Source of the DNA: a virus
Virus record (IMG/VR): IMGVR_UViG_3300009160_000114
Span: 1-30,778 of that record
Strand: one strand, 5' to 3'
Length of the DNA: 30,778 nt
Position 1 is the first letter of the stretch. Each line of letters starts with the position of its first letter. Both the position numbers and the translations under genes were made by a program. The notes under the pieces are model-generated. The model searched no databases. It was not told the origin of the DNA and saw nothing but the letters and a program-made list of their open reading frames with translations. Shown piece by piece: positions 1-26,145 of the stretch.

Positions 1-9
1 GGTAGAACC

Positions 10-333
10 ATGAAGAAAGCTCCCCTCCCCGCCGGCCTGAAGACCGAGACCGTCCCGTCGGCCCTGTTCTCCTACGATGCCCGTGAGGAGCACCCGGACG
101 TGACGGCCATCAACGTGACCCACATCCTCGACGTGGTGATCCCCGGCTACTGGTCGATGAACCTCCGGGAGCGTCCGGACTACACGACCAGCCGGACCCT
201 CGTGGCGTCCTGGTGCGAGGCCCATGGTGCCCACTACTACGCCAAGGATCGCGAGGACTTCTCCCTCTACGAGGCCGCCCGGGAGGCTGTCGACAAGGGC
301 CTGACCAGGATGGTCTACGAGGACCTATCGTAA
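10..333 (+). CDS. small early-region protein of unknown function
   Basis: A 107-residue protein that I do not recognise. It is soluble, with no signal peptide or membrane segment, and has several aromatic and charged residues in its C-terminal half. The ATG is chosen because the bases just before it (GGTAGAACC, positions 1-9) are the 3' end of the promoter cassette that precedes most genes in this region; the rest of the cassette lies outside the window. Codon use is strongly GC-biased like its neighbours. The next cassette-like sequence starts right after its stop, so it is probably a single-gene unit, perhaps a host-takeover protein by location only. Confidence 0.75.
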
Positions 334-337
334 CGAC

Positions 338-368
338 GCAAAGTTCCCAAAAGAAACGGTGTAAAAGT
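338..368 (+). promoter_or_regulatory. degenerate copy of the early promoter cassette
   Basis: GCAAAGTTC followed by an A-rich spacer and GTGTAAAAG resembles the cassette found before other early genes, but the -10-like hexamer is poor and no start codon lies six bases downstream. The collagen-like gene starts about 32 bases further on, so this copy would give a leadered transcript if it works. Confidence 0.4.
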
Positions 369-400
369 TGTACTTCTTGGTGTATGGTTGATCCATAGTC

Positions 401-925
401 ATGTTATCATGGATCGCCATACTTTTATCAGCCCTCGCCTTGTTCGAGATCAGGACTCTCAAGCAGCGCCTCCGAACCATCAGCCGAACACCAGGACCAC
501 GGGGTCGCAGAGGGTTACCTGGACCGGCAGGTCCTCGAGGTGAGGACGGGGTTGCCGGACCACCTGGTCCATCAGGACCGCAGGGGAGTAATGGTATGCC
601 TGGACCCCAAGGTGACAGAGGTCCTGCGGGTGGGCCTGGTATGCTTGGTACCACAGGACCCATGGGACCTACAGGCCCGCAGGGCGACAAGGGCGATCCC
701 GGAGTTGTTGGCGAGGTAGGACCCCAAGGTCCGACAGGTGCCACAGGACCCCAAGGTGGGCGAGGTGAGGCTGGTCCAAAAGGTGATATGGGACCACCCG
801 GTCCGCGGGGCGAAGTGGGTCCTAGAGGTCCCCAGGGCTTCAAGGGTGAGTCCAGCGGACCGGCCGAACGTGAACTCCTTGCCCATTGGGCCCACGAGGC
901 CTTGAAGCCTTCTGGAGAAGAATAG
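401..925 (+). CDS. collagen-like membrane-anchored protein
   Basis: A 174-residue protein. Residues 1-16 are a hydrophobic segment ([16 protein letters not shown]), followed by a basic stretch and then, from about residue 31 to 151, nearly uninterrupted Gly-X-Y triplets with many prolines, broken once near GGPGM. The C-terminus is a short charged non-collagenous tail. Such repeats form collagen triple helices; in phages they usually occur in tail fibres or head fibres, but those normally lack an N-terminal membrane segment. Here the anchor and the location among early genes suggest a cell-envelope protein made in the infected host rather than a virion fibre. That reading is inference. No Shine-Dalgarno sequence is visible before the ATG, which follows a four-codon mini-ORF. 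Confidence 0.85.
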
Positions 926-934
926 CACTGAGCA

Positions 935-970
935 GTGCAAAGTTCTACCTCGAAAGGATATACTAGGACC
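935..970 (+). promoter_or_regulatory. early promoter cassette, TATACT type
   Basis: GTGCAA at 935-940 acts as a -35-like box, an 18-bp spacer follows, TATACT lies at 959-964, and AGGACC fills the six bases to the ATG at 971. Transcription starting about seven bases after the hexamer would begin at the start codon, giving a leaderless mRNA. Confidence 0.75.
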
Positions 971-1291
971 ATGAACATCGTCGAGTACGTCTCCGGTCTC
1001 CGCAAGTACCGCATCACCCTCGTCCCCGGTGCCTACGTCGTCGTCGAGGCCTTCAAGGATGACCAGTTCGTCTCGATGAAGAGGTTTGAGGTGGGGGACG
1101 AGGTGGAGTACGACTCCTTCAACCTGAGCTACACAGGCCTCATCATGGCGATCGGCAAGAAGACGGTCACCGTGGAGACCTCTTTCAGGGGAAACAAGCG
1201 CCTCAAGGCCGAGGAGTTCGGCTGGCGGAACTGGGACTTCAATGCTGCTGAGACCGCACGACGCAACGCAGAAACGTCGCAATCTATCTGA
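971..1291 (+). CDS. small conserved phage-type protein, unknown function
   Basis: A 106-residue protein. The middle ([15 protein letters not shown], about residues 43-57) followed by a KKTVTVE strand looks like a small beta-barrel, and the C-terminus has an [16 protein letters not shown] segment that I associate with a widespread family of small phage proteins without known function. The frame is open upstream to 935, but that part is the promoter cassette read as protein; the start at 971 is chosen because the cassette always ends six bases before an ATG. Confidence 0.75.
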
Positions 1292-1296
1292 GGGCT

Positions 1297-1332
1297 GTGC
1301 AAAGTTCGGACCCGAAAGGGTATACTAGAACC
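1297..1332 (+). promoter_or_regulatory. early promoter cassette, TATACT type
   Basis: GTGCAA, 18-bp spacer, TATACT at 1321-1326, then AGAACC up to the ATG at 1333. The spacer here (CGGACC region) differs from other copies while both boxes are kept. Confidence 0.72.
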
Positions 1333-1497
1333 ATGGAAACGGTCTTCGCCAAGGTCCCCCAGCACCTCTACCTCTTCCGGTCCGCCTGCGGGACCAAGTT
1401 CATCGACCGGGACGGTCGGGGCTGGAAGCTCCACACCCCGACCCTCGGGAAGTGGACCTACTTCCCCACCTTCAAGGCCTGCCTCACGGCGGCCTGA
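1333..1497 (+). CDS. very small early protein, unknown
   Basis: A 54-residue protein with many aromatic and basic residues (YLFR, KWTYFPTF) and a single Cys near the middle. I do not recognise it. The start follows the promoter cassette directly. It stands alone between two cassettes, so it is probably expressed as its own unit. Confidence 0.65.
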   Translation: METVFAKVPQHLYLFRSACGTKFIDRDGRGWKLHTPTLGKWTYFPTFKACLTAA

Positions 1498-1512
1498 AAA
1501 GTCGCGGAGGCG

Positions 1513-1548
1513 GTGCAAAGTCAACCCTAAAAGAGGTAAGGTAGAACC
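1513..1548 (+). promoter_or_regulatory. early promoter cassette, TAAGGT type
   Basis: GTGCAA at 1513-1518, 18-bp spacer, TAAGGT at 1537-1542 and AGAACC before the ATG at 1549. The -10-like hexamer is far from the bacterial consensus, unlike the TATACT copies, but spacing and total length (36 bp) are unchanged. Confidence 0.65.
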
Positions 1549-2274
1549 ATGCCGATCATCAAGACGAGCTACGACGCCAACGTCGGCCCCGAGACCCTCT
1601 TCCGTGGTCGGGTGCTCAAGATCGAGAAGACCACGGAGACCCGCAACTGGTCGGACACGTTGGACTACAGCGACCACCGCTCCACGGAGTGCACCTGGGC
1701 CCTCGTCTACCTCGGGACCCACGGCGTGCCGCCCCGCGGTTGGAACGGCCGGGTGATCGCCCACATCAAGGACCCGTTCTGGGAGACGCCCCGGGACCTG
1801 ACGGTCGACGAGCGGTTCGCCTGGATGGACTGCACCAACCTCTTTGGGGACCGGCACGGTTACCTGCTCAAGGCCGAGGTCGACACGGTGGGCGACCTTC
1901 TCATCGCCGGTGGCACGGAGAACATCTACGACCAGCTCGCCGCCTGGGAGGCCCACCACAAGGCCGCCCTCGAGGCCCGAGTCGCGGAGCATGCCGCAAA
2001 GGAGGCCATCCGCCTCGCCGCCGAGAAGGCCGCGGCCGAGAAGAATGCCGCCCGTGCTGCCAAGGCTGCCGAGAAGGATGCCGTCCTCAAGGCCGCCGCT
2101 GAAGGCCACCTCGCCCGGATCCCCACCAAGGGCACTCAGGTCACGGTGGATGGGTTCACAGGGAAGGTCTTCTGGATCGGGGTCTCCAAGTACCGTGGGT
2201 CCTGGTCCGCCCGGGCCGGTATCAAGGACTCCAGGGGCAACGTGCAGTGGGTTCCGGCGGACCGGTTCTCCTGA
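1549..2274 (+). CDS. Ala-rich coiled-coil protein with small beta C-domain, unknown
   Basis: A 241-residue protein with three parts: an N-terminal region (about 1-120) rich in Trp and charged residues; a long Ala/Lys/Glu helix (about 125-185), very likely a coiled coil; and a C-terminal beta-rich domain starting GTQVTVDGFTGKV that resembles small SH3-like or KOW-like barrels. It is the largest protein in the early block apart from the partial view of neighbouring operons. No catalytic motif is visible. The long hairpin at 2278-2358 begins right after its stop. Confidence 0.75.
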   Translation: MPIIKTSYDANVGPETLFRGRVLKIEKTTETRNWSDTLDYSDHRSTECTWALVYLGTHGVPPRGWNGRVIAHIKDPFWETPRDLTVDERFAWMDCTNLFGDRHGYLLKAEVDTVGDLLIAGGTENIYDQLAAWEAHHKAALEARVAEHAAKEAIRLAAEKAAAEKNAARAAKAAEKDAVLKAAAEGHLARIPTKGTQVTVDGFTGKVFWIGVSKYRGSWSARAGIKDSRGNVQWVPADRFS

Positions 2275-2277
2275 CCT

Positions 2278-2358
2278 AGGATGACACAGGAGAGGCTTCC
2301 ATAAATCCGGGAGGGGTAACCAAGGCCCGACTCCCCAAAGCCTCTCCTGGGTCATCCT
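2278..2358 (+). ncRNA. long imperfect hairpin; possible structured RNA or terminator
   Basis: Positions 2278-2298 and 2338-2358 are inverted repeats matching at 20 of 21 bases (AGGATGAC..AGGAGAGGCTT against its complement). The 39-base loop holds a second stem (GGGAG with CTCCC). No T-run follows, so a classical intrinsic terminator is less likely than a structured RNA, a processing site or a factor-dependent stop. Confidence 0.5.
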
Positions 2359-2385
2359 CGAGACCTCGACAAAGTTCACAGGACA

Positions 2386-2421
2386 GTGCAAAGTTCCACC
2401 TTGAAGTGATAAGTTAGAACC
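2386..2421 (+). promoter_or_regulatory. early promoter cassette, TAAGTT type
   Basis: GTGCAA at 2386, hexamer TAAGTT at 2410-2415, AGAACC to the ATG at 2422. A partial extra copy of the ACAAAGTTCAC element lies just upstream at about 2369-2380. Confidence 0.62.
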
Positions 2422-2511
2422 ATGGACAAGCACACCGCCTCGGACATCCTCGGAGCCCTCATCACGGTCGCCTCCACGGCCTTCGCCGGCTACTGGCTCC
2501 TCGCCCTCTGA
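2422..2511 (+). CDS. 29-residue single-span membrane protein
   Basis: A tiny protein with a charged N-terminus (MDKHTASD) and one hydrophobic helix (ILGALITVASTAFAGYWLLAL). It is accepted as real because its ATG stands exactly at the end of a promoter cassette and the codon use matches the neighbours. Function unknown; small phage membrane proteins of this type often alter the host envelope, but nothing specific is visible. Confidence 0.6.
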   Translation: MDKHTASDILGALITVASTAFAGYWLLAL

Positions 2512-2541
2512 CCCTTCACTCCCAACCACAAGGACGACACC

Positions 2542-2727
2542 ATGAACGACTCGATCACCATCAAGACCTGCAAGTGCGACGAGTGTGACCATACGGCACC
2601 TGGTGTGGAGTACACATCCCTCGGGTCCCCGGTTCTCTTCGTCTGCAAGCACTGCGAGCCCAAAGGGTTCGAGAAGCAGGCCCGACAGGATATCGATTCC
2701 TGGTTGGCCGGCGGTTCGTTCCGCTGA
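2542..2727 (+). CDS. small zinc-ribbon-like protein
   Basis: A 61-residue protein with C-K-C-D-E-C near residues 10-15 and C-K-H-C near residues 36-39, the spacing of a zinc ribbon or treble-clef knuckle. It is likely to bind zinc and perhaps nucleic acid or a host protein. Unlike most genes here it has no cassette; instead AAGGA lies about eight bases before the ATG, so it is probably the second gene of a two-gene transcript with the membrane peptide upstream. Confidence 0.72.
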   Translation: MNDSITIKTCKCDECDHTAPGVEYTSLGSPVLFVCKHCEPKGFEKQARQDIDSWLAGGSFR

Positions 2728-2732
2728 TCCCG

Positions 2733-2768
2733 GTGCAAAGTCAACCCTGAAAGAGTTAAGGTAGAACC
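2733..2768 (+). promoter_or_regulatory. early promoter cassette, TAAGGT type
   Basis: GTGCAA at 2733, TAAGGT at 2757-2762, AGAACC to the ATG at 2769. Nearly identical to the copy at 1513-1548, including the one-base change AGTCAACCC in the spacer, so these two share a recent ancestor. Confidence 0.66.
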
Positions 2769-3149
2769 ATGGCAACTCGCTCCTACATCGGCAAGCTCCT
2801 CAACGACGGCTCCATCACCGGCATCTACTGCCACTTCGACGGTTACCCGGAGGGCGTCGGTGCCACCCTCAAGGAGCACTACACGGATCCGGTCAAGGTG
2901 GATGCCCTCCTCGCCCTCGGCTCCATCTCGTCCCTCGGGGCGGAGATCGGGGAACAACACGAGTTCGAGGATCGATCCCGCGACTGCGTCACGGCCTGCC
3001 ACCGGGACCGTGGCGAACGCCTTGAGGCGCCGACCGTCTACCGGAACATCGACGAACTTCGCCGGAATGCCTTCAACGACCTCGGGGCTGAGTATGCCTA
3101 CGTCTTCGTCAACGGGGAGTGGGCCACCACGGAGTTGGGTCCGGCGTGA
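2769..3149 (+). CDS. conserved phage protein of the MATRSxIG family, unknown function
   Basis: A 126-residue protein starting MATRSYIGKL and carrying IYCHFDGYPEGVG (about residues 19-31), which I recognise as the signature of a widespread family of small phage and bacterial proteins with no established role. Full length for that family by my recollection. A cassette promoter precedes it and the next gene overlaps its stop, so the two are translated together. Confidence 0.82.
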   Translation: MATRSYIGKLLNDGSITGIYCHFDGYPEGVGATLKEHYTDPVKVDALLALGSISSLGAEIGEQHEFEDRSRDCVTACHRDRGERLEAPTVYRNIDELRRNAFNDLGAEYAYVFVNGEWATTELGPA

Positions 3150-3379
3150 CCCTCGATGAGTTCCTCCGCAAGGCCCTGGAACCTCAACGTGCCACGAGAC
3201 CGGGACAACGGTTCATCAACCTCCTCCACGAGGTGAAGCCCAGCCTCGCCTACAACCTGAAGAAGATCAACCTCGATCCGTACTACATGGATCAGCTCCT
3301 CCCCGCGGCCATCCAGTACGCCGTGGACAACTGGGACGCCTTCAGCCCAACCGACTACATCATAGGAGTCGATGAGTGA
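3146..3379 (+). CDS. small protein translationally coupled to the upstream gene
   Basis: A 77-residue protein, probably helical, not recognised. The frame is open from 3119, but the GTG at 3146 overlaps the upstream stop as GTGA and has GGAG a few bases before it, so I choose that start. The overlap means it is probably made in fixed ratio with the upstream conserved protein and may work with it. Confidence 0.68.
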   Translation: MTLDEFLRKALEPQRATRPGQRFINLLHEVKPSLAYNLKKINLDPYYMDQLLPAAIQYAVDNWDAFSPTDYIIGVDE

Positions 3380-3407
3380 TGAAAGATACAAGAAATTCCC
3401 TCATCTA

Positions 3408-3443
3408 GTGCAAAGTTCAACCGGGAAGTGATAGGGTAGAACC
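3408..3443 (+). promoter_or_regulatory. early promoter cassette, TAGGGT type
   Basis: GTGCAA at 3408, TAGGGT at 3432-3437, AGAACC to the ATG at 3444. Stop codons in the spacer (TGA, TAG) show that this element is not a conserved N-terminal peptide. Confidence 0.64.
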
Positions 3444-3665
3444 ATGGGTTACGAATCGACCACGTACGAATGCCGGGGTTGCGGGCGATACGGTGACGGA
3501 ACCTGGGTGTCCCTGCCACCTGAGTGGTCACGCATCGAGCGGATCGACGGGCCGAACAGCATCTGTCCTGCCTGTGTTCACGATCGTCTCGAGGATGTTC
3601 TCAAGGATCTTCGCGAGGACGGTTACGAGCACGCCCACGTGGTGCAAAGTTCAACCGAGAAGTGA
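3444..3665 (+). CDS. small zinc-ribbon protein
   Basis: A 73-residue protein with two Cys pairs (CRGC near residues 10-13 and CPAC near residues 42-45), likely a zinc ribbon, then a helical charged tail. The last eight codons lie inside the next gene's promoter cassette: GTG GTG CAA AGT TCA is both coding and the -35 box, and the stop TGA is part of the spacer. It may be a DNA- or RNA polymerase-binding protein by analogy with other small phage zinc ribbons; this is inference. Confidence 0.72.
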   Translation: MGYESTTYECRGCGRYGDGTWVSLPPEWSRIERIDGPNSICPACVHDRLEDVLKDLREDGYEHAHVVQSSTEK

Positions 3666-3677
3666 TAGGGTAGAACC
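3642..3677 (+). promoter_or_regulatory. early promoter cassette inside the 3' end of the upstream gene
   Basis: GTGCAA at 3642, TAGGGT at 3666-3671, AGAACC to the ATG at 3678. The first 24 bases also encode the C-terminus and stop of the upstream zinc-ribbon protein. Confidence 0.64.
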
Positions 3678-3881
3678 ATGAAGAAGACGATCCCCCATGC
3701 GATCCCCCAGAGGCCGTGGCAGTCCTACCCCGGCGAGAACTTCGACCGCACGACCACCATGGCCCTCCAGATCGCGGACGAAGCTCGGGCCAATGGGCGG
3801 GTCGAACCGGCCCACGGCTACTCCCGAGGAGACTGGGAGACGGCTGAAGAACGTCTCGTCCGCAGTGCAAAGTTCGCCTGA
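3678..3881 (+). CDS. small early protein, unknown
   Basis: A 67-residue protein, proline-containing N-terminus followed by a probable helix (ALQIADEARANGR). Not recognised. Its last codons (CGC AGT GCA AAG TTC GCC TGA) overlap the following promoter cassette, as in the gene before it, which shows how tightly the block is packed. Confidence 0.66.
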   Translation: MKKTIPHAIPQRPWQSYPGENFDRTTTMALQIADEARANGRVEPAHGYSRGDWETAEERLVRSAKFA

Positions 3882-3900
3882 GAAAGGGTATATTAGGACC
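3865..3900 (+). promoter_or_regulatory. early promoter cassette, TATATT type
   Basis: GTGCAA at 3865, TATATT at 3889-3894, AGGACC to the ATG at 3901. Overlaps the 3' end of the upstream gene. Confidence 0.72.
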
Positions 3901-4158
3901 ATGAAGAACGACATCACGGTGGGCGACCTCGTCGAAGAGGTGGGCACGGACTCCGGTTGGTGGGTGGTGACCGAGGTCTTCCGGAACACCCACCGCAAGT
4001 ACATCGTCTGCGAGGATGCGGCGGGGCGACCGGTTCGCATGGTGACCGAGGTCTTCCGAAACACCCTCCGCGAGGGGTTCGCGGCGAAGCTGGTCCTTAA
4101 GGATCGACCGGACTGCGTCACCTTCGTCCCCATCGACCGGTTGGCCAAGGTCGGCTGA
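3901..4158 (+). CDS. small early protein with an internal duplication
   Basis: An 85-residue protein beginning MKNDITVGDLVEEVG, consistent with a small beta-barrel. The segment VTEVFRNTHR (about residues 23-32) recurs as VTEVFRNTLR (about 48-57), and the DNA is nearly identical over some 30 bases, so part of the gene was duplicated recently. Function unknown. A short hairpin overlaps its stop codon. Confidence 0.72.
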   Translation: MKNDITVGDLVEEVGTDSGWWVVTEVFRNTHRKYIVCEDAAGRPVRMVTEVFRNTLREGFAAKLVLKDRPDCVTFVPIDRLAKVG

Positions 4159-4169
4159 GAAAAGTTCTC
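4157..4169 (+). other. short hairpin over a stop codon
   Basis: GAGAA-AAG-TTCTC forms a five-base stem on the stop codon of the upstream gene. Similar small hairpins follow the next three genes. No T-run, so termination is doubtful. Confidence 0.35.
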
Positions 4170-4175
4170 CCGGCG

Positions 4176-4211
4176 GTGCAAAGTTCCCAGCAGAAAGGAT
4201 ATACTAAGACC
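4176..4211 (+). promoter_or_regulatory. early promoter cassette, TATACT type
   Basis: GTGCAA at 4176, TATACT at 4200-4205, AAGACC to the ATG at 4212. The spacer shares CCCAGCAG with the copy at 4413. Confidence 0.72.
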
Positions 4212-4385
4212 ATGAAGCTCACCAAGAAGCAGGTCCTCGAGATGTTCCGCGAGTTCTGGACCGGGCACCCCGGTTCGTGGACGGAGAGCGAGAGGCGGGA
4301 AGCCTGGAACGACTTCACGGATATGTTGTGCAAGGATCGGCAGATCACGGAACGCCAGTACGAGACCTGGGCCAACCCGTTCTGA
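4212..4385 (+). CDS. small early protein, unknown
   Basis: A 57-residue, Trp-rich, mostly helical protein starting MKLTKKQVLEMFREFW. Not recognised. The first residues superficially resemble the MKLT start of the putative capsid-targeted proteins elsewhere in the window, but there is no cleavage-type site and the helix continues differently, so I do not group it with them. Confidence 0.66.
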   Translation: MKLTKKQVLEMFREFWTGHPGSWTESERREAWNDFTDMLCKDRQITERQYETWANPF

Positions 4386-4388
4386 GCC

Positions 4389-4406
4389 GGGGACAAAAAG
4401 TTCCCC
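4389..4406 (+). other. short hairpin after a small gene
   Basis: GGGGA-CAAAAAGT-TCCCC lies a few bases after the stop codon and just before the next promoter cassette. It may slow or end transcription from the upstream unit, but no T-run follows. Confidence 0.4.
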
Positions 4407-4412
4407 AGCCCG

Positions 4413-4448
4413 GTGCAAAGTTCCCAGCAGAAAGTGTATACTGAGACC
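4413..4448 (+). promoter_or_regulatory. early promoter cassette, TATACT type
   Basis: GTGCAA at 4413, TATACT at 4437-4442, GAGACC to the ATG at 4449. Confidence 0.72.
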
Positions 4449-4676
4449 ATGAAGAACGCACGCTTCAACGAGGAGATGGCGATCATCAACGGCCGCGGCA
4501 CCTGGAGCGCCGACGGCTCCACCCTCACCCTGGAGAACGGGCGGATCCTCACGAAGGACGAGCAGTGGTCGGAGCGTGACCGCCTCCTGTCCGCCCGTCT
4601 GGCGAAGCCTGCCAAGCCGACCTCCCCTGCGGTCAAGCGGGAACGAGCCCGTCGGATGGCAACCGGCTGGTACTGA
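4449..4676 (+). CDS. small early protein, unknown
   Basis: A 75-residue protein. The N-terminal half could form a beta hairpin (GTWSADGSTLTLENGRIL); the C-terminal half is strongly basic (KRERARRMATGW), which could bind nucleic acid. Not recognised. Single-gene unit between a cassette and a short hairpin at 4680-4701. Confidence 0.66.
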   Translation: MKNARFNEEMAIINGRGTWSADGSTLTLENGRILTKDEQWSERDRLLSARLAKPAKPTSPAVKRERARRMATGWY

Positions 4677-4706
4677 GCCGGGGGACGAAAAAAGATCCTC
4701 CAGCCC

Positions 4707-4742
4707 GTGCAAAGTTCAACCTCGAAAGGGTATACTAGGACC
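4707..4742 (+). promoter_or_regulatory. early promoter cassette, TATACT type
   Basis: GTGCAA at 4707, TATACT at 4731-4736, AGGACC to the ATG at 4743. Matches the copies at 935 and 5156 almost throughout. Confidence 0.75.
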
Positions 4743-4919
4743 ATGAAGACCACGGTAGAGGTAGTCCAGGCCCGCGATGTTCTCCGGCTCACCTTATCCC
4801 TCGAGGAAGCCAAGCGGATCCGTGCGGCCCTCTCGGACCTGGACGGGGAAGACTTAGACGCCTATGGCGGGATCCTTGAGGTCCTGCGGAAGGCCATTCC
4901 CCAACAATGGGCTCGGTGA
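4743..4919 (+). CDS. small early protein, unknown
   Basis: A 58-residue acidic helical protein (LSLEEAKRIRAALSDLDGED). Not recognised. Its stop is followed by a small GAGA/TCTC hairpin and then the next cassette. Confidence 0.66.
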   Translation: MKTTVEVVQARDVLRLTLSLEEAKRIRAALSDLDGEDLDAYGGILEVLRKAIPQQWAR

Positions 4920-4936
4920 GAGCAGTTCTCCCGGCG

Positions 4937-4972
4937 GTGCAAAGTTCAACGAGGAAAGGATATACTAGGACC
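4937..4972 (+). promoter_or_regulatory. early promoter cassette, TATACT type
   Basis: GTGCAA at 4937, TATACT at 4961-4966, AGGACC to the ATG at 4973. Confidence 0.74.
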
Positions 4973-5149
4973 ATGAAGAACGAAGCCATCTACGAGATCG
5001 CGTACTTCACCCCCAAGGGCAAGCCCGGCCGGAAGCAGGTCCGCCAGTCGCGAATCGTCAAGGAAGCTCAGAAGCTGTACGACGCCGGGTACCACGGCAT
5101 CCAGGTCTCCTACTACCCACTGATCGCCGGCGTCGATCCGATCATCTGA
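4973..5149 (+). CDS. small early protein, unknown
   Basis: A 58-residue protein, basic in the middle (KGKPGRKQVRQSRIVK) and ending in a short hydrophobic stretch. It resembles small alpha/beta phage proteins with a Y..GY...V pattern but I cannot name a family. The frame is open from 4907; the start at 4973 is set by the cassette. Confidence 0.66.
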   Translation: MKNEAIYEIAYFTPKGKPGRKQVRQSRIVKEAQKLYDAGYHGIQVSYYPLIAGVDPII

Positions 5150-5155
5150 CCTGCG

Positions 5156-5191
5156 GTGCAAAGTTCAACCTCGAAAGGATATACTAGGACC
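5156..5191 (+). promoter_or_regulatory. early promoter cassette, TATACT type
   Basis: GTGCAA at 5156, TATACT at 5180-5185, AGGACC to the ATG at 5192. This is the last complete cassette in the window. Confidence 0.75.
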
Positions 5192-5551
5192 ATGAAGAAC
5201 CCCGGCAAGTACGAGTCGACTCTCGCCACCACCCTCAAGTCCCTAGGTCTCGACCACCGCGCGGAGGACCCCAACTTCCTGGAACTCCGCGAGGCGGCCT
5301 ACAAGATCGACGACCTCCGTGCTGAACTGGAAGGTTGCTCCCGGCGTCGCGCGGACCGACTCACGTCCTTCGCCAATGATGTGGCCTCGGGCCGGATCCA
5401 CATGACACCCCCGACGGGCAGCTCCCTCGTCGATGACATCGCGGAGAAGACCACCATCCTCAACGAGAAGTCCTCATCCTTCCCCACCCTCCTCCGCCTC
5501 GTCGCCGGACCAACCGCACCGAAGGAGTTCTTCGCGATCCTCCGCACCTGA
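5192..5551 (+). CDS. early protein, unknown
   Basis: A 119-residue, largely helical protein with a charged middle (LRAELEGCSRRRADRL). No known motif is visible. It is the last gene driven by the 36-bp cassette; downstream the gene organisation changes. Confidence 0.7.
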   Translation: MKNPGKYESTLATTLKSLGLDHRAEDPNFLELREAAYKIDDLRAELEGCSRRRADRLTSFANDVASGRIHMTPPTGSSLVDDIAEKTTILNEKSSSFPTLLRLVAGPTAPKEFFAILRT

Positions 5552-5582
5552 GAAACCCAACCTTCGCCACCACCGACCCGCA

Positions 5583-5603
5583 GGAGGATGATATATATCC
5601 TCC
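5583..5603 (+). promoter_or_regulatory. inverted repeat and TATATA box abutting a start codon
   Basis: GGAGGAT (5583-5589) and ATCCTCC (5597-5603) form a seven-base stem directly before the ATG at 5604. The loop contains TATATA (5592-5597) six bases before ATG, the same spacing as the early cassettes. In RNA the stem would hide the GGAGG ribosome-binding site, so either transcription starts at the ATG or translation is controlled by the hairpin. Confidence 0.45.
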
Positions 5604-5891
5604 ATGAAGCTAACACGCCGCCACCTCCGCACCATCATCGATGAGGTCATCACAGAGGATCTCAAGAACGTTCGCAGCAGCCACGAGAAGACCATCGCCG
5701 GCACAACCGCGCTCCGCAAGATGCACGACGCCCCCGGCGTTCTCGATGCGCTATCGAAAATCACTGACCCCAAAGAACTGGCTCAGGTCATAGAAGCCAT
5801 CATCGACGCAGTTCCCATGGTCAAACGCGGAGACGTCCTAGCGGCTCTGGCGAAGGTGACACGTCATGAACGCACCACACACAGGTTCTAA
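5604..5891 (+). CDS. small protein with capsid-targeting-like N-terminus
   Basis: A 95-residue helical protein starting MKLTRRHLRTIIDEVITE. The first 18 residues match the pattern shared with at least six proteins in the late region (MK-[LI]..L-[RK].[IL]I.E), followed by [LI]-x-E sites (IDE, ITE) of the type cut by T4-like prohead proteases. It may therefore be an internal head protein although it lies next to the early genes. The remainder (SKITDPKELAQVIEAIIDAV) is amphipathic helix. Function otherwise unknown. Confidence 0.65.
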   Translation: MKLTRRHLRTIIDEVITEDLKNVRSSHEKTIAGTTALRKMHDAPGVLDALSKITDPKELAQVIEAIIDAVPMVKRGDVLAALAKVTRHERTTHRF

Positions 5892-5892
5892 C

Positions 5893-5991
5893 ATGCGCCT
5901 CGACAGATCACATCTCGTGGCCTTCCTCGAAGGCACTGTCCTCGGGGTCATCTTCGGCTGGGTGCTGTGGTGGGGCCTGCTGCGCGACTGA
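5893..5991 (+). CDS. 32-residue membrane protein
   Basis: Charged N-terminus followed by a Trp-rich hydrophobic helix (GTVLGVIFGWVLWWGLL). It begins one base after the upstream stop codon, so it is probably translated from the same transcript. No Shine-Dalgarno sequence is obvious. Could be a small holin-like or envelope-modifying peptide; not assignable. Confidence 0.5.
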   Translation: MRLDRSHLVAFLEGTVLGVIFGWVLWWGLLRD

Positions 5992-6254
5992 GACGCAAAG
6001 GGGCCCGATAAAGACGGCGCAAGGCCGGGGGCTGGGGGTTAAAAGGCTGTAAAAGGGCCCCTAATTTAGGTGGGGGGCCGGCCCCTAAAATAGGCCCCTT
6101 TCGGGCCTAGGGGCCCCCCGGCCATTTATAGCATTTTCTGTGGGCTTTCTAGGGCCTCCGGGGGGCGCTAAGGTCGTTCGCGCGACTCGAGAAATTTTGA
6201 GATCAAAACGGTACCTTCTCCTGTCTCGTGGAGGCACATCAGCCTATTTAGATC
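5992..6254 (+). other. GC-rich hairpin-forming spacer
   Basis: This stretch has no convincing gene and is full of GGGCC/GGCCC runs. The best fold is 6080-6115: GGCCCC pairs with GGGGCC, and inside it TAGGCCC pairs with GGGCCTA around a CTTTC loop. Other overlapping stems (CCCCTAA with TTTAGG) are possible. It lies where GC content falls and the promoter cassettes end. An origin, a regulatory RNA, or a terminator region are all possible; nothing decides between them. Confidence 0.5.
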
Positions 6255-6437
6255 GTGTTGGACCTGAAGCCCGGCGATCTATGCACCTATCTAGACGATG
6301 GTGATACGCCGCGGGTCCTGTTGTCACGGGTCTTGATGTTCCTCTATGTAAATCCGAAGCATTCCGATGAAGGCATGTTCCTGTGTAATGATGGGTCGCT
6401 CGACGAGGAGTACTTCGTGTTCCTGAGGCGCCTGTGA
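6255..6437 (+). CDS. small protein, possible phage accessory gene
   Basis: A 60-residue ORF with a GTG start. The pattern KPGDLC..L....P.VLLSRV....P and then GMFLCNDGS..EEYFVFL looks like a small beta-barrel protein common in phages (GD near the N-terminus, DGS before the last strand). There is no good ribosome-binding site; a TATTTA lies four bases before the GTG. Plausible but not certain. Confidence 0.5.
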   Translation: MLDLKPGDLCTYLDDGDTPRVLLSRVLMFLYVNPKHSDEGMFLCNDGSLDEEYFVFLRRL

Positions 6438-6567
6438 CCGAGTTCCGGAGCGAGGGAAAGATCCCTCGCGGCCGTCGTGCTCGAAATTTCTCGGGAATTT
6501 TTTCGTATCGAAATCGACCGTTGTTCTTTGGTGGGATGATGCGTACCATGGATGGCGAGGTGATGAG

Positions 6568-6821: not shown

Positions 6822-7757
6822 ATGGCCCTAGGTGTCTGTTGTCATTGGATTAGGCATGAAGTTGCGCCGCGGAGCGGCAAATCGCAAGTCATCAACGAAT
6901 TGGATGAGAGAACCTTGCAATTGGGTCGATACGAACGAGGTTCTTATGCTGAGGACTCGATTCGTTCGTTGTATCTGCACAATGTTCGAATGTTGCGAGA
7001 TGTGTTGCGGAAGGTTGCGGCGAGTGGCGTGCGGTTGTTCCGCGTGTCATCCGCGATGTTTCCGTTGAGTGATCGCGTTCCTCGAGGGTTGTGGGACAAC
7101 GAGGTCGTGAAGCGCGAGTTGATGTTGTGTGGCGAGGTGGCACGGAAGCATGGCATTCGGTTGACGACTCATCCGGGTCAGTTCTGCGTGTTGTCATCAG
7201 ATTCTGATTCCGTGGTGGAGAAGGCCGTTGTCGAGCTCGAGCATCATGCCTGGATGTTTGATTCCATGGGGTTGCCGAGGAGCCCTTACGCTGCGATCAA
7301 CGTGCACGGTGGCAAGTCAGATCGAGTTTCACGGTTGATCGATGCGATTCGATCTTTGCCTGAGGCGTCGAGGTCGAGGTTGACGTTAGAGAATGACGAG
7401 ACGTGTTATTCGTTGGTGGACCTGTTGCCGGTGGCTCTCGAGACGGGCGTTTCTCTCGTTTGGGATTCGCATCATCACGTGTTCAACGATGGTGGATTGG
7501 ACGGCGCAGAGGCTGCAGATGCAGCCGATGAGACGTGGCCTAAGGGAGTGAAACCTCTGCAACATATCAGTAACACGGAACCGGGTATGGAAGGCGGTTC
7601 ATTCACCGAACGTCGGAAACACAGCAACATGATTCATTACGTGCCAGAAATCCAGCTCGAGCGCCTCCGGCGCGATGCTGTGGACGTTGAAGTCGAGGCC
7701 AAGTTGAAGAATTTGGCGGTGTTCGATATGTCAAAGAAATTTAGTATTCCTTTGTGA
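6822..7757 (+). CDS. uvsE: UV damage endonuclease UvsE
   Basis: A 311-residue TIM-barrel endonuclease of the UVDE/UvsE family, which nicks DNA 5' of cyclobutane dimers and 6-4 photoproducts and so starts excision repair. The family motifs are all present in order: FRVSS (73-77), HPGQF (117-121), INVHGG (159-164), LENDE (189-193), DSHHH (215-219) and HISNTEPG (248-255), including the metal-binding His, Glu and Asp positions. Length is normal for the family. The ATG has no Shine-Dalgarno sequence; TATACA lies five bases upstream, so it may be leaderless. A phage copy would protect its DNA from light damage. Confidence 0.93.
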   Translation: MALGVCCHWIRHEVAPRSGKSQVINELDERTLQLGRYERGSYAEDSIRSLYLHNVRMLRDVLRKVAASGVRLFRVSSAMFPLSDRVPRGLWDNEVVKRELMLCGEVARKHGIRLTTHPGQFCVLSSDSDSVVEKAVVELEHHAWMFDSMGLPRSPYAAINVHGGKSDRVSRLIDAIRSLPEASRSRLTLENDETCYSLVDLLPVALETGVSLVWDSHHHVFNDGGLDGAEAADAADETWPKGVKPLQHISNTEPGMEGGSFTERRKHSNMIHYVPEIQLERLRRDAVDVEVEAKLKNLAVFDMSKKFSIPL

Positions 7758-7838
7758 ATTACCTTTGAGCAAAGGTGTTTGAGAAAAGAGTATAAAGTAA
7801 TTGACCTCGTAAAAGAGGATATACAGGAGAGAAAAAAC

Positions 7839-8120
7839 ATGGCGAAAAATAAGACAGTTCAGAAGCGTTCCTCGGATTTGACAGTGCAGTATCCCCAAAA
7901 GATTACGTTCGATGAGCTTGCAGTGGTAGATGATGACACGTTGGGTAGCATGCACAAGAGCCACGTGGATGCGATCAATCGTATGTCAAGTCACGATCTC
8001 AACACGAGTCCATGGGAGATTGAGTTGTGTTATGTGCAGCGAGAGATGCAGATGAGGATCCTACGGAAGGAGTTACACACGAAGTATCTCTCTAACGTGG
8101 TTTCTCATGAGGTGGACTGA
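7839..8120 (+). CDS. conserved-type small protein, unknown
   Basis: A 93-residue protein. The frame is open from 7779, but a strong ribosome-binding site (CAGGAGA) lies seven bases before the ATG at 7839. Basic N-terminus, then acidic and helical; not recognised. It lies directly upstream of the sigma factor, two bases between stop and start, so the two are probably an operon. A TATAAA at 7790-7795 with an upstream TTTGAG may be its promoter. Confidence 0.72.
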   Translation: MAKNKTVQKRSSDLTVQYPQKITFDELAVVDDDTLGSMHKSHVDAINRMSSHDLNTSPWEIELCYVQREMQMRILRKELHTKYLSNVVSHEVD

Positions 8121-8122
8121 AG

Positions 8123-8950
8123 ATGAATTCCGAACCCCAAGGATTGAGAGAACGCTCTCGAGATCTCGCCGGAGACGGCGATGCAATGGGTTACTATTTA
8201 AACTCGTTAAAGAAGCATCAACAGCTTAATCATGAACAGATGGTTGAGTTGTTCAAAATCTTAGAGGAAGGTGGGCCTACCTCTTCTAAGGTGAGGAATA
8301 AGCTGGTTGAAACCAACTTGAGATTGGTCGTTTACGTTGCAAAACAATATAAACGACACAACATGCCTCTTGAAGACATTATTCAAGAGGGAAATTTGGG
8401 ATTGATGAAGGCGATCGAGAAGTTCGACTGGCGGAAAGGTTTTAGATTTTCCACTTACGCCACTTGGTGGGTTCGACAAGCGATCGGTCAGCATATTCTA
8501 AAGAGAAAGAGAATCATTCGTATGTCGGCCCATGCTGTCAACACACAAAAAAAGTTGATGTCGGCGGCCGAAGAATACCGATCAACCATGGGTTGCGAGC
8601 CGAGCGTGGAGGAACTGAAGGAGCTGACAGGAACGTCAGATATGATCTTCAATGCCACGACGATCAGCGGTCGGGCAATCATTTCTCTGGATCAACCTCT
8701 TTCATCAGATCCAGATTCTGACACAATTGAGGATAAGATTGGCGCGGATCTATCAGAGGATCCTATGCAGATAGTTTCTTCAAGGGAACTGTTGGGCGTT
8801 GCGAAAGAAGTCATGGAGCAATTATCACCAAAAGAAGCGGCAATTTTGAGGTTACGGTTTGGGTTGGTTGAAGACGTTTCTGCTGATGATTCTTATAACT
8901 TGACGCAGGAAGAGGTGGCTTCAATTGCAGAAGGTCATGGGTTAACATGA
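8123..8950 (+). CDS. sigma-70 family factor lacking the region 4.2 recognition helix
   Basis: A 275-residue sigma factor. Region 1.2-like sequence (about 24-50) precedes an intact region 2: NLRLVVYVAKQY (65-76), DIIQEGNLGLMKAIEKFDW (85-103) and FSTYATWWVRQAI (109-121), which bind core RNA polymerase and melt the -10 box. Region 3 follows. Region 4.1 is visible (LSPKEAAILRLRFGL, about 237-251), but the protein ends at LTQEEVASIAEGHGLT, just where the recognition helix (usually VTRERIRQIE) should begin. It therefore should not read a -35 box by itself. T4 gp55 also lacks a full region 4. The stop overlaps the next ATG. Confidence 0.9.
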   Translation: MNSEPQGLRERSRDLAGDGDAMGYYLNSLKKHQQLNHEQMVELFKILEEGGPTSSKVRNKLVETNLRLVVYVAKQYKRHNMPLEDIIQEGNLGLMKAIEKFDWRKGFRFSTYATWWVRQAIGQHILKRKRIIRMSAHAVNTQKKLMSAAEEYRSTMGCEPSVEELKELTGTSDMIFNATTISGRAIISLDQPLSSDPDSDTIEDKIGADLSEDPMQIVSSRELLGVAKEVMEQLSPKEAAILRLRFGLVEDVSADDSYNLTQEEVASIAEGHGLT

Positions 8951-9174
8951 TTGAGTATTTGATACTTTTCTTTTCTACTTTAAGCTGCGTTCTATCAGGG
9001 ATAGCTTTTAGTCTGTTGCGTAAGATTGCTAAAGAGCAATCAGGACGTGAATCTTTTGATACTATGAAGCTAGAAGAGAACCTCAACACTCGTTTGAGAG
9101 ATTTGCAGATGACTCAGTTTAGTTTACGAATGCCGAATTATCCGCGGCCGAGCGGTGTCACGAGGAAAAAATAA
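8947..9174 (+). CDS. small membrane protein overlapping the sigma gene
   Basis: A 75-residue protein with one N-terminal membrane helix (MIEYLILFFSTLSCVLSGIA), then a charged helical cytoplasmic-type tail. Its ATG overlaps the sigma stop as ATGA, so it is translationally coupled. Function unknown. Confidence 0.72.
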   Translation: MIEYLILFFSTLSCVLSGIAFSLLRKIAKEQSGRESFDTMKLEENLNTRLRDLQMTQFSLRMPNYPRPSGVTRKK

Positions 9175-9177
9175 TTT

Positions 9178-9477
9178 ATGACGATGAAAAAAGGTAGCAA
9201 ATTTGACGGCGGATATGCGACAATTGACGAGAATGGTGTTAATTATCGTGACATCGCTGAGACAATGACTCATCTCGGATATAAGATGAACCATTCATCA
9301 GCTCGTAATTATGTTTTACGTGTTATGCGAAAGTTTGTAGATGCTATTGCAGAGAAGCATGGAGTCGCGTTGACAAGCGATGATGCAAACAAGATTTCAA
9401 AGTCTCCGCTATTCCAAAGCGGAATTTATGACTTGCTGCAGGACTTAGATGTCCATAGAAAAATTGGTGAAAAATGA
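9178..9477 (+). CDS. small helix-turn-helix protein resembling sigma region 4
   Basis: A 99-residue protein. Residues about 21-53 (NYRDIAETMTHLGYKMNHSS followed by ARNYVLRVMRKF) align by eye with the sigma region 4.2 helix-turn-helix: a first helix with EIG/DIAE, a turn, and a second helix with R..R.I..RALRKL replaced by N..ARNYVLRVMRKF. This is the part missing from the sigma factor encoded two genes upstream. It could therefore act as a detached region 4 or as a co-activator in the manner of T4 gp33. A simple HTH regulator is the alternative. Same operon as the sigma gene; next gene overlaps by ATGA. Confidence 0.7.
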   Translation: MTMKKGSKFDGGYATIDENGVNYRDIAETMTHLGYKMNHSSARNYVLRVMRKFVDAIAEKHGVALTSDDANKISKSPLFQSGIYDLLQDLDVHRKIGEK

Positions 9478-9887
9478 AAGCGGTAAAATATCAAAAAAAA
9501 TCTTTGATTAAACTAGAGAATTTGTTGAGGCGACGAAAAACGACGCTTTCCAAATTCTTACAAGAGAGAGGTATCACGACGTATCAGGCACTCGAGTCAG
9601 TTTGTTCTAGGCTAGGGGTTGTTACGCCTTCCTTTGAGGCATTTAACCTATGCATTCCTTCCTACGTATCAGATCCGACTGATGGTGTTATTGTTGTTCC
9701 GCCGCTAGACGTTGTAAATGAGGTGACGGGCGAGAAAGAAGACGTTGGAGATATTTTCGTTGCAATCTCGCCCGGGGCGACTTACGAAATCTCGATGATG
9801 GATAATGACGAGCAGATGTCTGGATCTGCAGACGTCGTTGACGTTCGCAGTTTTTCTCGTAAAAAGAATAAAAAGGCGGTTGGATGA
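9474..9887 (+). CDS. unknown protein with basic helical N-terminus
   Basis: A 137-residue protein, strongly basic at the N-terminus (KLENLLRRRKTTLSKFLQER, about 13-32) with a possible helix-turn-helix (ITTYQALESVCSRLGVV), then a Pro/Val/Asp-rich middle and a basic end. DNA binding is plausible. The ATG overlaps the previous stop (ATGA), and the next gene overlaps its stop in the same way, so it belongs to a coupled gene chain from the sigma factor onward. Confidence 0.7.
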   Translation: MKAVKYQKKSLIKLENLLRRRKTTLSKFLQERGITTYQALESVCSRLGVVTPSFEAFNLCIPSYVSDPTDGVIVVPPLDVVNEVTGEKEDVGDIFVAISPGATYEISMMDNDEQMSGSADVVDVRSFSRKKNKKAVG

Positions 9888-10156
9888 AGATGAGACGTGT
9901 TGTTTATGATATTGAAAATTTCAAGCAAGAAAAGAAACACAACAAGACCCCAGAAGATTCTCAAAACTGGTTATTTGAAAAGCGGAACATGGCTTTAAAA
10001 CTCATCAACAATGCTTCAGCTTTGTCTGATGCCGTCGGTGTTTGTAACCATGTTCTGGAAAAGAATCCAGATTCGGAGTTAAAATTTGCAGTTGAAAAAA
10101 TCAACAAGGTTATTGAAGAGCTAAAAAAAGACTTTAAGAAGAATTACACATTCTAG
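9884..10156 (+). CDS. unknown helical protein
   Basis: A 90-residue, lysine-rich, mostly alpha-helical protein (KFAVEKINKVIEELKKDFKK near the end). No family recognised. Coupled by ATGA overlap with the gene before it. Confidence 0.68.
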   Translation: MKMRRVVYDIENFKQEKKHNKTPEDSQNWLFEKRNMALKLINNASALSDAVGVCNHVLEKNPDSELKFAVEKINKVIEELKKDFKKNYTF

Positions 10157-10163
10157 GTCACTC

Positions 10164-10895
10164 ATGAACAAACGAACTATGTTATCTCAACGTAATGTTT
10201 ACATGAGATTGGCGTTAGAGAAATTTCTTAGTTCAAAATGTGTAGAGTACCTCGACAAAGAAGAATTGGCAAATTTAAACTCCGCATTTCTTTCTCTAAC
10301 ACCAGGAGAGAATATCCACGTTTTTAAATTGGAAGTCGTCTTTCCTTTAGAAAAAAAATCGATATTTCGGGGGATTGTTGCCGTTGTCAGTTTTGCGTGG
10401 AACGTAGCAAAAGAAAATGAAGTGGACAAACAAGGAAATCTTTGGTCGGTTTACGAATTTATGCCGACTCTTTCTCTTAAAGAGCGTTATTCTCTTTCAG
10501 GGGAAATACTGAAATATTGGGTAGAATGTATCTCTAGCATCTTACATCTTTTAGATGATATAAAATCGTTAAATATTCCTCGTAAAGTCAAAGAAATGAC
10601 GTGCACCAATGAGGAACGATTAAGAATCGAGTTGCAAAAAAAATATGAAGAATCTTGTGCGGCTTTATCAAGATATTTTCGAACTTCAGAAGGAAAAAAG
10701 TTAAGATTAAATTTAAGGAAAAAAGGTAAACAAAAAAAAATACCTCTCAAGTTTATATCTGAATTTTTGTTAGATAGTTCACGCAAAAAATACGAATTTA
10801 AAGTTCGAGAGAATGACTCTTCTTATTTCAGCAAGTATAGAAGATATTCTATCTTAGTCGAAAATGACTGCGCCTTAATAAGAAGAGAAGAGTGA
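10164..10895 (+). CDS. unknown protein, 243 residues
   Basis: A largely helical protein with a very basic segment near residues 175-200 (KKLRLNLRKKGKQKKIPLKF), suggesting contact with nucleic acid. No catalytic signature is visible. It follows the previous gene by seven bases and its stop codon overlaps the alternative GTG start of the ligase frame. AT-rich codon use distinguishes it from the early block. Confidence 0.7.
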   Translation: MNKRTMLSQRNVYMRLALEKFLSSKCVEYLDKEELANLNSAFLSLTPGENIHVFKLEVVFPLEKKSIFRGIVAVVSFAWNVAKENEVDKQGNLWSVYEFMPTLSLKERYSLSGEILKYWVECISSILHLLDDIKSLNIPRKVKEMTCTNEERLRIELQKKYEESCAALSRYFRTSEGKKLRLNLRKKGKQKKIPLKFISEFLLDSSRKKYEFKVRENDSSYFSKYRRYSILVENDCALIRREE

Positions 10896-10915
10896 AATGT
10901 CTAAATTTTGTTTGT

Positions 10916-10927
10916 TATAATAACAAC
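10916..10927 (+). promoter_or_regulatory. TATAAT box six bases before the ligase ATG
   Basis: TATAAT at 10916-10921 is followed by AACAAC and ATG. GTGAAA lies 18 bp upstream (10892-10897), matching the GTGCAA-18-hexamer-6-ATG layout of the early cassettes though the spacer is unrelated. It could give a leaderless ligase mRNA. Confidence 0.5.
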
Positions 10928-12283
10928 ATGTCAACAGTAATTGATGTCCTCGAAGCGCTCGAGTCTGATAATTCAAGAATCTTCAAAGAAGATCTTCTTG
11001 ATAGGTGCAAAGGAAATTCTTTGCTCAAAAAAGTCTTTGTCGCGGCATTCGATCCGTATTCAAACTACTACGTCAAAAAATTTAAGTCATCCAAAAGTTT
11101 CAATAGAGTTGATGATGATGATACTGTCATCGAACGATTTCTGAACTTGATCGGACAAGAGCTAGCAACTCGAAAAATCACGGGTAATGATGCCAAGAGT
11201 GCCGTGGAACAGTTCTTTTTAGAACTAGATGAACGTCAAGCAAAGTGGTGCCAACGAATTCTTCTTAAGAATTTAAGATGTGGAGTTCAAGAAACGACCG
11301 TAAATAAGGTGTGGCCTGGTACCATCAAGAAATTCACCGTTCAACTTGCGGATAGCCTTGAAACACATCACGATCCTAACGCAGGCATTCAAATTAAGGA
11401 TCAAATCATTTATCCTGTCCGGGTTGAACCTAAGTTAGATGGGTTACGATGCATCGCTGTGAAGCTAGCTGGCGAAGTTACTCTGTTTACGCGTAGCGGA
11501 TCAATACTAGAGACTCTACCTAAGATTAAGTCGATTTTGGAAAATGTAGGGTGGGATAATTTTGTTCTCGATGGAGAGATCATGGGATCTGACTGGAATG
11601 AGTCTGCGTCCGTTGTGATGTCTCACAAAAAGAACAAAGATGATTCCAACATGATCTTACACGTTTTTGACGCGATGCCTTTCGACGATTGGCGTGATCA
11701 AAACAATGAGATGTCTCTAGCTGACAGAGCCATTCTAGCCCATAAGTTGGTCGAACAGGTCGCTGACAAGTCCATTGCAATTGTCGAAGGTAAGGTTGTC
11801 AATGATCAGCATGCTCTTTTAGAGTTTTATTCTGCAAAGATGGAAGCAGGATACGAAGGCATTATGGTAAAGAAGTTGGATTCTAATTACGTTTTCAAAC
11901 GCTCCAACTCAGTCCTCAAGCTTAAGCCAGTGTCTACCTACGAAGGAGTAGTGGTAGGAAACTACCTGGGAACTCGAGGTTCAAAGAGAGAGGGCATGTG
12001 GGCAGGATTTGAAGTTGTTTTGCCGAACGGCGTTGTGACGAGGGTCGGTGGTGGGTTCACCGACAAGATTAAGGCAGAGATCGGAATGAACCCCGCCGCA
12101 TGGCTCGGCAAGGTGATTGAGATGGAAGGTCAGCCAGATCCTGCTACAAAAAATGGACTAACCAAGGATGGCCGAATCAGGTTTCCTGTCTTTGTTAGAG
12201 AGAGATCAAAAGATGACGTTGACGTAGTTGTATTAATCGCAGGAGAAAAGTTTATAAACAAAAATATTGAACAGTTTGTTTGA
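10928..12283 (+). CDS. ATP-dependent DNA ligase, T4 gp30-like
   Basis: A 451-residue ligase that seals nicks with ATP. The N-terminal helical domain (1-150) resembles T4 ligase (LLKKVFVAAFDPYSNYYVKK, then ATRKITGNDA and NKVWPG). The adenylation motif is EPKLDG at 167-172 with Lys169 as the nucleophile. Later motifs include VLDGEIMG, EGIMVKK and KLKP, and the C-terminal OB domain follows (VVVGNYLGTRGSKREGMWAG). Length is close to T4 ligase. The frame is open to a GTG at 10892, but the ATG at 10928 fits the T4 N-terminus and has a TATAAT box six bases before it. It serves Okazaki fragment joining and repair alongside UvsE. Confidence 0.94.
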   Translation: MSTVIDVLEALESDNSRIFKEDLLDRCKGNSLLKKVFVAAFDPYSNYYVKKFKSSKSFNRVDDDDTVIERFLNLIGQELATRKITGNDAKSAVEQFFLELDERQAKWCQRILLKNLRCGVQETTVNKVWPGTIKKFTVQLADSLETHHDPNAGIQIKDQIIYPVRVEPKLDGLRCIAVKLAGEVTLFTRSGSILETLPKIKSILENVGWDNFVLDGEIMGSDWNESASVVMSHKKNKDDSNMILHVFDAMPFDDWRDQNNEMSLADRAILAHKLVEQVADKSIAIVEGKVVNDQHALLEFYSAKMEAGYEGIMVKKLDSNYVFKRSNSVLKLKPVSTYEGVVVGNYLGTRGSKREGMWAGFEVVLPNGVVTRVGGGFTDKIKAEIGMNPAAWLGKVIEMEGQPDPATKNGLTKDGRIRFPVFVRERSKDDVDVVVLIAGEKFINKNIEQFV

Positions 12284-12351
12284 TAATGATATAGTTATCG
12301 TCGAAGTTGTAATACAATTGAACACAGCTTCGTTACAGGAGATTATTTAAA

Positions 12352-12582
12352 ATGACAAAGGTATTATCAGTAGTTCTTGCCGCTCTTTTTATCGCTGCAT
12401 GTGCCGCCACAGATGCACCAGCTCCAGCCGCTTCTGCTTCAGCTGAGGTAGTTGTTGATGTTGCTGCCTCGGTTTCGGCAGCAGCTCCAGTTGAGAGTGC
12501 TGCACTTGCTGCTACGCCAGCTTCGGCTGCGCCTGTTGCAACAGTTGCTCCCAGCGCAACAGCAACAGCAGCTACAAAGTGA
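12352..12582 (+). CDS. Ala/Pro-rich lipoprotein
   Basis: A 76-residue protein with a lipoprotein signal: MTKVLSVVLAALFIAAC, lipobox IAAC with Cys17 as the lipidated residue. Everything after it is low-complexity Ala, Pro, Ser, Val. It would be a short surface or periplasmic lipoprotein, conceivably blocking superinfection as some phage lipoproteins do (inference). A good ribosome-binding site (CAGGAGA) precedes the ATG. A strong hairpin follows the stop. Confidence 0.8.
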   Translation: MTKVLSVVLAALFIAACAATDAPAPAASASAEVVVDVAASVSAAAPVESAALAATPASAAPVATVAPSATATAATK

Positions 12583-13711: not shown

Positions 13712-13737
13712 ATCCATTTTATTCATGATTTCTTAAA

Positions 13738-14178: not shown

Positions 14179-14198
14179 GATTTTTGTTCTTTCGTTAA

Positions 14199-16072: not shown

Positions 16073-16082
16073 TGTTTTCCTT

Positions 16083-22152: not shown

Positions 22153-22293
22153 ATGAACGCCGACATGAAGTTATTGAGGACATACCTAGCCAACGTCATC
22201 AGAGAGGTGGCAGAGGTACGGACCAAAACCGACGTGGTGGCAAGAGCTTACTTCTTGAATTTCTTACGTGTGTTCGCAAGGTCGATGCCATAA
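22153..22293 (+). CDS. possible 46-residue peptide with capsid-targeting-like N-terminus
   Basis: Reads MNADMKLLRTYLANVIREVA and continues basic to the end. From the internal Met (22165) it is MKLLRTYLANVIREVAE, another form of the shared N-terminal pattern with an [VI]-x-E site. A run of TATATATAT lies just before the first ATG. The 3' end overlaps the opposite gene. It may be a truncated relic of an internal-protein gene. Confidence 0.45.
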   Translation: MNADMKLLRTYLANVIREVAEVRTKTDVVARAYFLNFLRVFARSMP

Positions 22294-23210: not shown

Positions 23211-23266
23211 GGGAGGTAAATATAGGATCGGTCAAAGAAAATATTCAAAGAATGTCGCCTCTGTTC

Positions 23267-26110: not shown

Positions 26111-26139
26111 TTATATTCTCCTGTAAACAATTTGGTTTA

Positions 26140-26145
26140 ATTATA
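26140..26145 (-). promoter_or_regulatory. TATAAT box before the major capsid gene
   Basis: Read on the minus strand, GTTATAATTAAACC gives a near-consensus -10 element 29 bases before the capsid ATG, with a proper ribosome-binding site between. No clear -35 box, which would suit a sigma factor lacking region 4.2. Confidence 0.5.

Follow-up and report, generated by a model that had tools for sequence, protein, structure and literature searches.

The first 5.2 kb of the IMG/VR virus record IMGVR_UViG_3300009160_000114, analysed here over 30.8 kb (the window), hold small genes whose start codons directly follow copies of a single 36-bp cassette. A search with the pattern GTGCAA-N18-TANNNT-N6-ATG gave 13 exact plus-strand matches in the window, all within those 5.2 kb, and none in 100 dinucleotide shuffles or with the reversed pattern, confirming the thirteen complete copies listed in a preliminary description of this DNA. 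Every copy is 36 bp long. Once aligned, all 13 share the nine-base block GTGCAAAGT at −36 to −28 relative to the ATG, AA at −18/−17, the TA and T of a TANNNT hexamer at −12 to −7, and ACCATG at the junction; a GAA near −19 and a G at −14 are also conserved, and a purine-rich stretch separates the hexamer from the ACC. The spacer contains stop codons and its reading frame is irrelevant, so we rejected a conserved peptide encoded by the cassette, as the preliminary description had done.

Pattern search and alignment place the plus-strand cassettes at 935–970 (ATG at 971), 1297–1332 (1333), 1513–1548 (1549), 2386–2421 (2422), 2733–2768 (2769), 3408–3443 (3444), 3642–3677 (3678), 3865–3900 (3901), 4176–4211 (4212), 4413–4448 (4449), 4707–4742 (4743), 4937–4972 (4973) and 5156–5191 (5192). 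Twelve precede open reading frames (ORFs) of 54–241 codons, and the one at 2386 an ORF of 29 codons. Cassettes run into the coding 3′ ends of upstream genes, as had been claimed: the copy at 3642 overlaps the end and stop codon of gene 3444–3665 by 24 nt, and the copy at 3865 those of gene 3678–3881 by 17 nt. Positions 1–12 (plus strand) hold the 3′ end and ATG of a cassette cut by the window edge. It is intact in a second record, G003 (20405–20452, GTGCAAAGTTCCACCTTGAAGTGATAGGGTAGAACCATG), which is 99.96% identical to the window across 17,668 bp and reaches 20.4 kb further left; this brings the intact copies to 14, and G003 adds others. The degenerate copy suspected at 338 did not hold up, since no TANNNT stands in register there. 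For the collagen-like gene downstream, a weak, ambiguous copy read from the sequence at 359–394 (plus strand; GTGTAAAAG-N15-TATGGT-N6) fits better; it is followed by ATAGTC-ATG, and transcription is predicted to start at 395, with the gene's ATG 6 nt further on at 401. This gene (401–925), with its Gly-X-Y repeats, sits inside the cassette region.

The cassette is present in 28 further IMG/VR records, one of which (G028) largely duplicates another (G013). To separate the promoter-like core from the start codon, we searched 27 records for GTGCAAAGT alone, with no ATG required; the records had been collected with the pattern that includes the ATG, one match sufficing per record, and ORF calls were crude. 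The search gave 306 distinct copies; in 285 of them a TANNNT follows at 17–19 bp, and the spacing is nearly fixed (18 bp in 277, 17 in 5 and 19 in 3). The ATG lies exactly 6 nt after TANNNT in 235 of the 277 cores, with no other offset in more than 6 copies. The motif is far from equally common away from start codons; equal frequency there was what the preliminary description had named as fatal to its proposal of a promoter placed at the start codon. At the +6 position ATG occurs 237 times and GTG twice, a strong AUG preference of the kind expected of leaderless genes.

Copies in which promoter and start codon have come apart are particularly informative. In 29 such decoupled copies the ATG lies 17–74 nt downstream, with the −35 and −10 retained. 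The predicted +1/+2 positions carry A or G followed by T in 21 of the 29, against a background of about 5.5% (p about 1e-20), and Shine–Dalgarno (SD)-like matches of at least 4 nt precede the displaced ATG in 79%, against 3% in shuffles. Since these copies keep the −35/−10 block and mostly gain an SD, the block appears to work independently of the start codon. Across 373 promoter units the leader lengths are distributed bimodally, with 320 fused, 44 long and 8 in between, as has likewise been reported for leaderless versus leadered Lactococcus genes (PMC10986495). The fused or leadered state is also largely inherited within a protein family, with a purity of 249/270 compared with a mean of 229.6 and a maximum of 239 in 5000 shuffles.

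A scan that left the −35 out, taking TANNNT-N6-ATG before ORFs of 40 or more codons, returned 627 ORF starts. With at most three mismatches, GTGCAAAGT stands at −36 in 379 of them, compared with 2 at a control position. A further 157 weaker sites show a TGnAAA core at −35 to −30 (T at −35, G at −34, A at −32 and A at −31), together with G at −14, A at −3 and C at −1; sites matching GTGCAAAGT poorly are flat, with none of these preferred bases. C at −1 and A at +1 agree with the ordinary preference for transcription start sites. A member of this weaker class, GTGAAATGT-N15-TATAAT-N6, lies at 10892–10927 (plus strand), fused to the ATG (10928) of a DNA ligase gene, and the protein family with a ligase-like N-terminus (MESVIEILEALESDN) has the promoter fused in 5 of 5 records. 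The promoter class extends beyond the early-type region.

Could the cassette instead guide ribosomes? In that case the genes would form part of longer mRNAs, on which the cassette, through GAAAGGA or AGGACC, would steer ribosomes to the ATG, much as proposed for the 13-bp SAS/ESAS of Cluster K mycobacteriophages, a suggested translation signal of sequence GGGATAGGAGCCC with an SD-like AGGAG (PMC3203893). Its position directly at start codons, the strongly conserved ACC before the ATG and, in some copies, an AAGGA 12–13 nt away would fit; like SAS, the cassette is a short conserved sequence right before many unrelated starts. However, its best-conserved block lies 28–36 nt upstream at a fixed spacing, decoupled copies retain this block and the −10 yet gain an SD-like sequence of their own, and GAAAGG is missing from about half of the window copies. 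Unlike the cassette, SAS lacks a −35/−10 layout and carries AGGAG, and matches to its consensus are at chance level before starts (none with two or fewer mismatches; 5 with three, 5.0 expected). A first scoring of SD matches said nothing on fused genes, in which the AAGGA of the promoter itself counts as a match at 12 nt. In four large records, an SD of 5 or more nt at normal spacing precedes 0 of 35 cassette genes but 14–18% of other genes, although 4-nt matches do not distinguish the two groups. RNA structure is weak at the 5′ ends of fused genes, whose first 40 nt fold at −4.7 kcal/mol, compared with −9.7 kcal/mol for later parts of the same genes. We consider a translation signal improbable.

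The fixed geometry, the decoupled copies and the −35-free scan support the earlier proposal of a promoter at the start codon, and we regard it as highly likely that the cassette is a complete sigma-70-family promoter fused to the ATG and giving leaderless mRNAs. Its −35 element would be GTGCAAAGT, with the core TGnAAA at −35 to −30 and a 17-bp spacer in that register; G at −14 and TANNNT at −12 to −7 would form an extended −10, and the discriminator would end in the C at −1. RNA polymerase would start on the A of the ATG, the mRNAs very probably beginning at the start codon with no leader, and the ribosome would initiate from the 5′ AUG. We file the element under the sigma-70 family because its −10, extended −10 and spacing fit, the −35 being the variable part of that class. 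Several points weigh on the other side. A consensus sigma-70 scan (TTGACA-like −35) of window positions 1–6500 found 0 promoters, TGnAAA occurring instead; the GAAAGGA of some cassettes is readable as a distant SD 12–13 nt before the ATG; the purine and T at +1/+2 of decoupled copies could be partly inherited from an ancestral ATG; and the records were gathered with a pattern containing the ATG, even if one match each was enough. The leaderless start itself is deduced from promoter geometry.

Which factor reads the −35 is a separate question, and its main rival answer to a host sigma is an activator box of the T4 middle type. Here GTGCAAAGT would be bound by a MotA-like phage activator and host polymerase would use the extended −10 only; the mRNAs would still be leaderless, and the genes would form a middle regulon, not an early one. 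The block is, at nine bases, longer than a usual −35 and is not TTGACA-like, and the G at −14 makes a strong extended −10. Against this, the weaker copies retain TGnAAA only, placed and spaced as in a classical −35, and the genes are small and accessory, as is typical of early T4 regions. We hold an activator to be possible, though rather less likely than not. The 'early' timing of the regulon is itself suggested by position and by analogy with T4 accessory regions.

The window also encodes a sigma-70 family factor (8123–8950, plus strand), in which Pfam and PHROG matches cover regions 2 and 3, region 4 being truncated without the −35 recognition helix. In 17 of 17 homologues from 17 records the C-terminus falls at one common point, short of the recognition helix of region 4.2; in lacking a −35 reader the protein resembles gp55. 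Its gene occurs in 18 of 29 records and is a near neighbour of the cassette region in the window as in several of the others, which might suggest that the phage's own sigma reads the cassette. This we find hard to credit: the −35, the cassette's strongest feature, would go unread, and a late-type motif with no visible −35 is a better fit for the shortened factor. Since all 17 homologues stop before the recognition helix, a host-type sigma probably reads the promoter in its stead.

This second motif, TATAnTTA, lies before late-type genes, the capsid gene among them, in many records and at 12290, 23224 (minus) and 26145 (minus) in the window. It falls 4–7 nt before the ATG at 58 ORF starts, compared with 5 for the reversed motif, most often at −13 to −6 of the ATG and often fused to it. 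One window copy, TATATTTA (23211–23224, minus strand), is fused at 6 nt to the ATG of gene 22248–23210. Another, TATAATTA, lies with part of an SD-bearing leader at 26118–26145 (minus strand), upstream of the Gp23-type capsid gene (24221–26110), whose ATG follows 27 nt after the motif. T4 late promoters carry TATAAATA at −13 to −6 of the transcription start. That sequence was not enriched; TATAnTTA was found instead, differing in sequence and, in many copies, fused to the ATG, but like the T4 element in its usual −13 to −6 position (here of the ATG) and in its company with a sigma lacking a −35 reader. The pattern is suggestive of, but does not establish, a second promoter class with leaderless late genes too. 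We speculate, with low confidence, that GTGCAAAGT early-type and TATAnTTA late-type promoters fused to AUG in many genes form a two-tier leaderless programme, in which much of translation during infection would bypass SD recognition, perhaps together with phage alterations to the host's ribosomes or initiation factors in favour of leaderless mRNA.

The gene content assigns the cassette carriers to a family of large, uncultured T4-like phages. Window products include a T4-type Gp23 major capsid protein (PF07068, E 1.8e-77), the sigma factor, an ATP-dependent DNA ligase and a UvdE endonuclease; Gp23 is also found in six other records (among the large contigs, in G006, G008, G012 and G017), and several cassette-bearing records are 211–298 kb long. 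The GC content is about 61% in window positions 1–6500 and 34–45% in 7000–12500. We rejected a chimeric assembly behind the drop at 6–7 kb, as a GC-rich cassette island recurs inside or at the end of contigs of 211–278 kb; the shift is natural, since cassettes concentrate in such an island within otherwise AT-rich contigs.

The ORFs that follow the 373 promoter units fall into 168 protein families, most of them small and of unknown function, and family order varies among records (F8-F19-F7 in G003, F8-F40-F105-F7 in G012). The cassette would act as a portable promoter-plus-start unit for dozens of small, unrelated genes, in a GC-rich accessory region where T4-like jumbo phages appear to gain, lose and reorder gene modules, with a host-type sigma rather than the shortened phage factor reading it. 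Alternatively, a short conserved sequence might be retained mainly as a site for module swapping; module order does vary, and similarity blocks start and stop at cassettes. Yet conservation tracks promoter elements and decays element by element, the weaker promoter is found by itself in AT-rich DNA, as in front of the ligase gene, and block edges are partly trivial, the cassettes being themselves conserved. We judge a recombination repeat very improbable.

The nearest known kind of element is the PeSL (promoter early stem-loop) cassette of T4-type phages, reportedly described by Arbiol in 2010 and Comeau in 2014. Fusion to the ATG is not known to us from PeSLs and is new to us. As cited in PMC4503421, PeSLs are repeated early promoter units between small accessory genes and are tied to module shuffling; the present cassettes likewise repeat an early-type promoter among small accessory genes of T4-like phages whose modules are shuffled. 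Unlike PeSLs, they have no systematic stem-loop upstream: 292 upstream stretches gave a mean z of −0.19, with z below −1.5 in 10%, against 7% of controls. A TANNNT hexamer placed some 12 bp ahead of the start codon is an established mark of leaderless bacterial genes, as in Actinobacteria and Deinococcus-Thermus, where an SD is not needed (PMC3160421; PMC12340547). Those genes are host-wide and variable upstream, whereas here one stereotyped 36-bp phage cassette has a near-invariant −35. Leaderless mRNAs are thus already known; what is added is that one 36-bp unit would combine promoter and translation start, copied before many families. Such a minimal plug-in expression part would explain how accessory phage genes move and get expressed at once, and the same promoter with an SD leader provides natural controls with which one could test whether leaderless initiation is a modular strategy that has evolved.

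We looked for relatives and hosts in several ways. Six records of those named phages that are closest in capsid or sigma gave 0 cassette-type promoter matches, and the cassette was not found in a search of a cultured-phage collection. None of the 29 records encodes WhiB, a family said to "ring" in Corynebacterium. Matches in a genome collection were mostly phage-like contigs in metagenome-assembled genomes (MAGs), either like these records or all on one 11-kb contig. Others, namely a Prevotellaceae palindrome (GTGCAAAGTTA...TAACTTTGCAC) and one lone site in an Acidimicrobiales MAG, were treated as chance, and the promoter was rejected as a host feature with 12 scattered matches among 296 genomes of that MAG's phylum. 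In the Prevotellaceae genomes L172, L174 and L175, the inverted repeats of this type lie before the ATG at two gene loci and are unrelated to the cassette.

Other features of the window deserve brief mention. Only a tRNA-Glu was matched among Rfam elements. A TAT-signal protein (14693–16183, minus strand) and a protein with weak PSCyt2/PSCyt3/DUF1800 matches (16829–18001, minus strand) are unusual phage cargo, and about 270 bp are duplicated internally at about 73% identity (13729–14001 and about 14190–14462). An inverted repeat, GGAGGATGATATATATCCTCC, lies at 5580–5604, immediately before the ATG at 5604. An inverted repeat of another sequence (GACAAG..CTTGTC) surrounds the −10 of a related gene in G012 and G016, and these repeats are possibly operators. 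The product of the window gene (5604–5891) begins with MKLTxxQLRxIIxEE, an N-terminus common to many otherwise different proteins, several per genome, that also occurs in G012, G016, G017, G020 and G011, possibly serving as a targeting tag.

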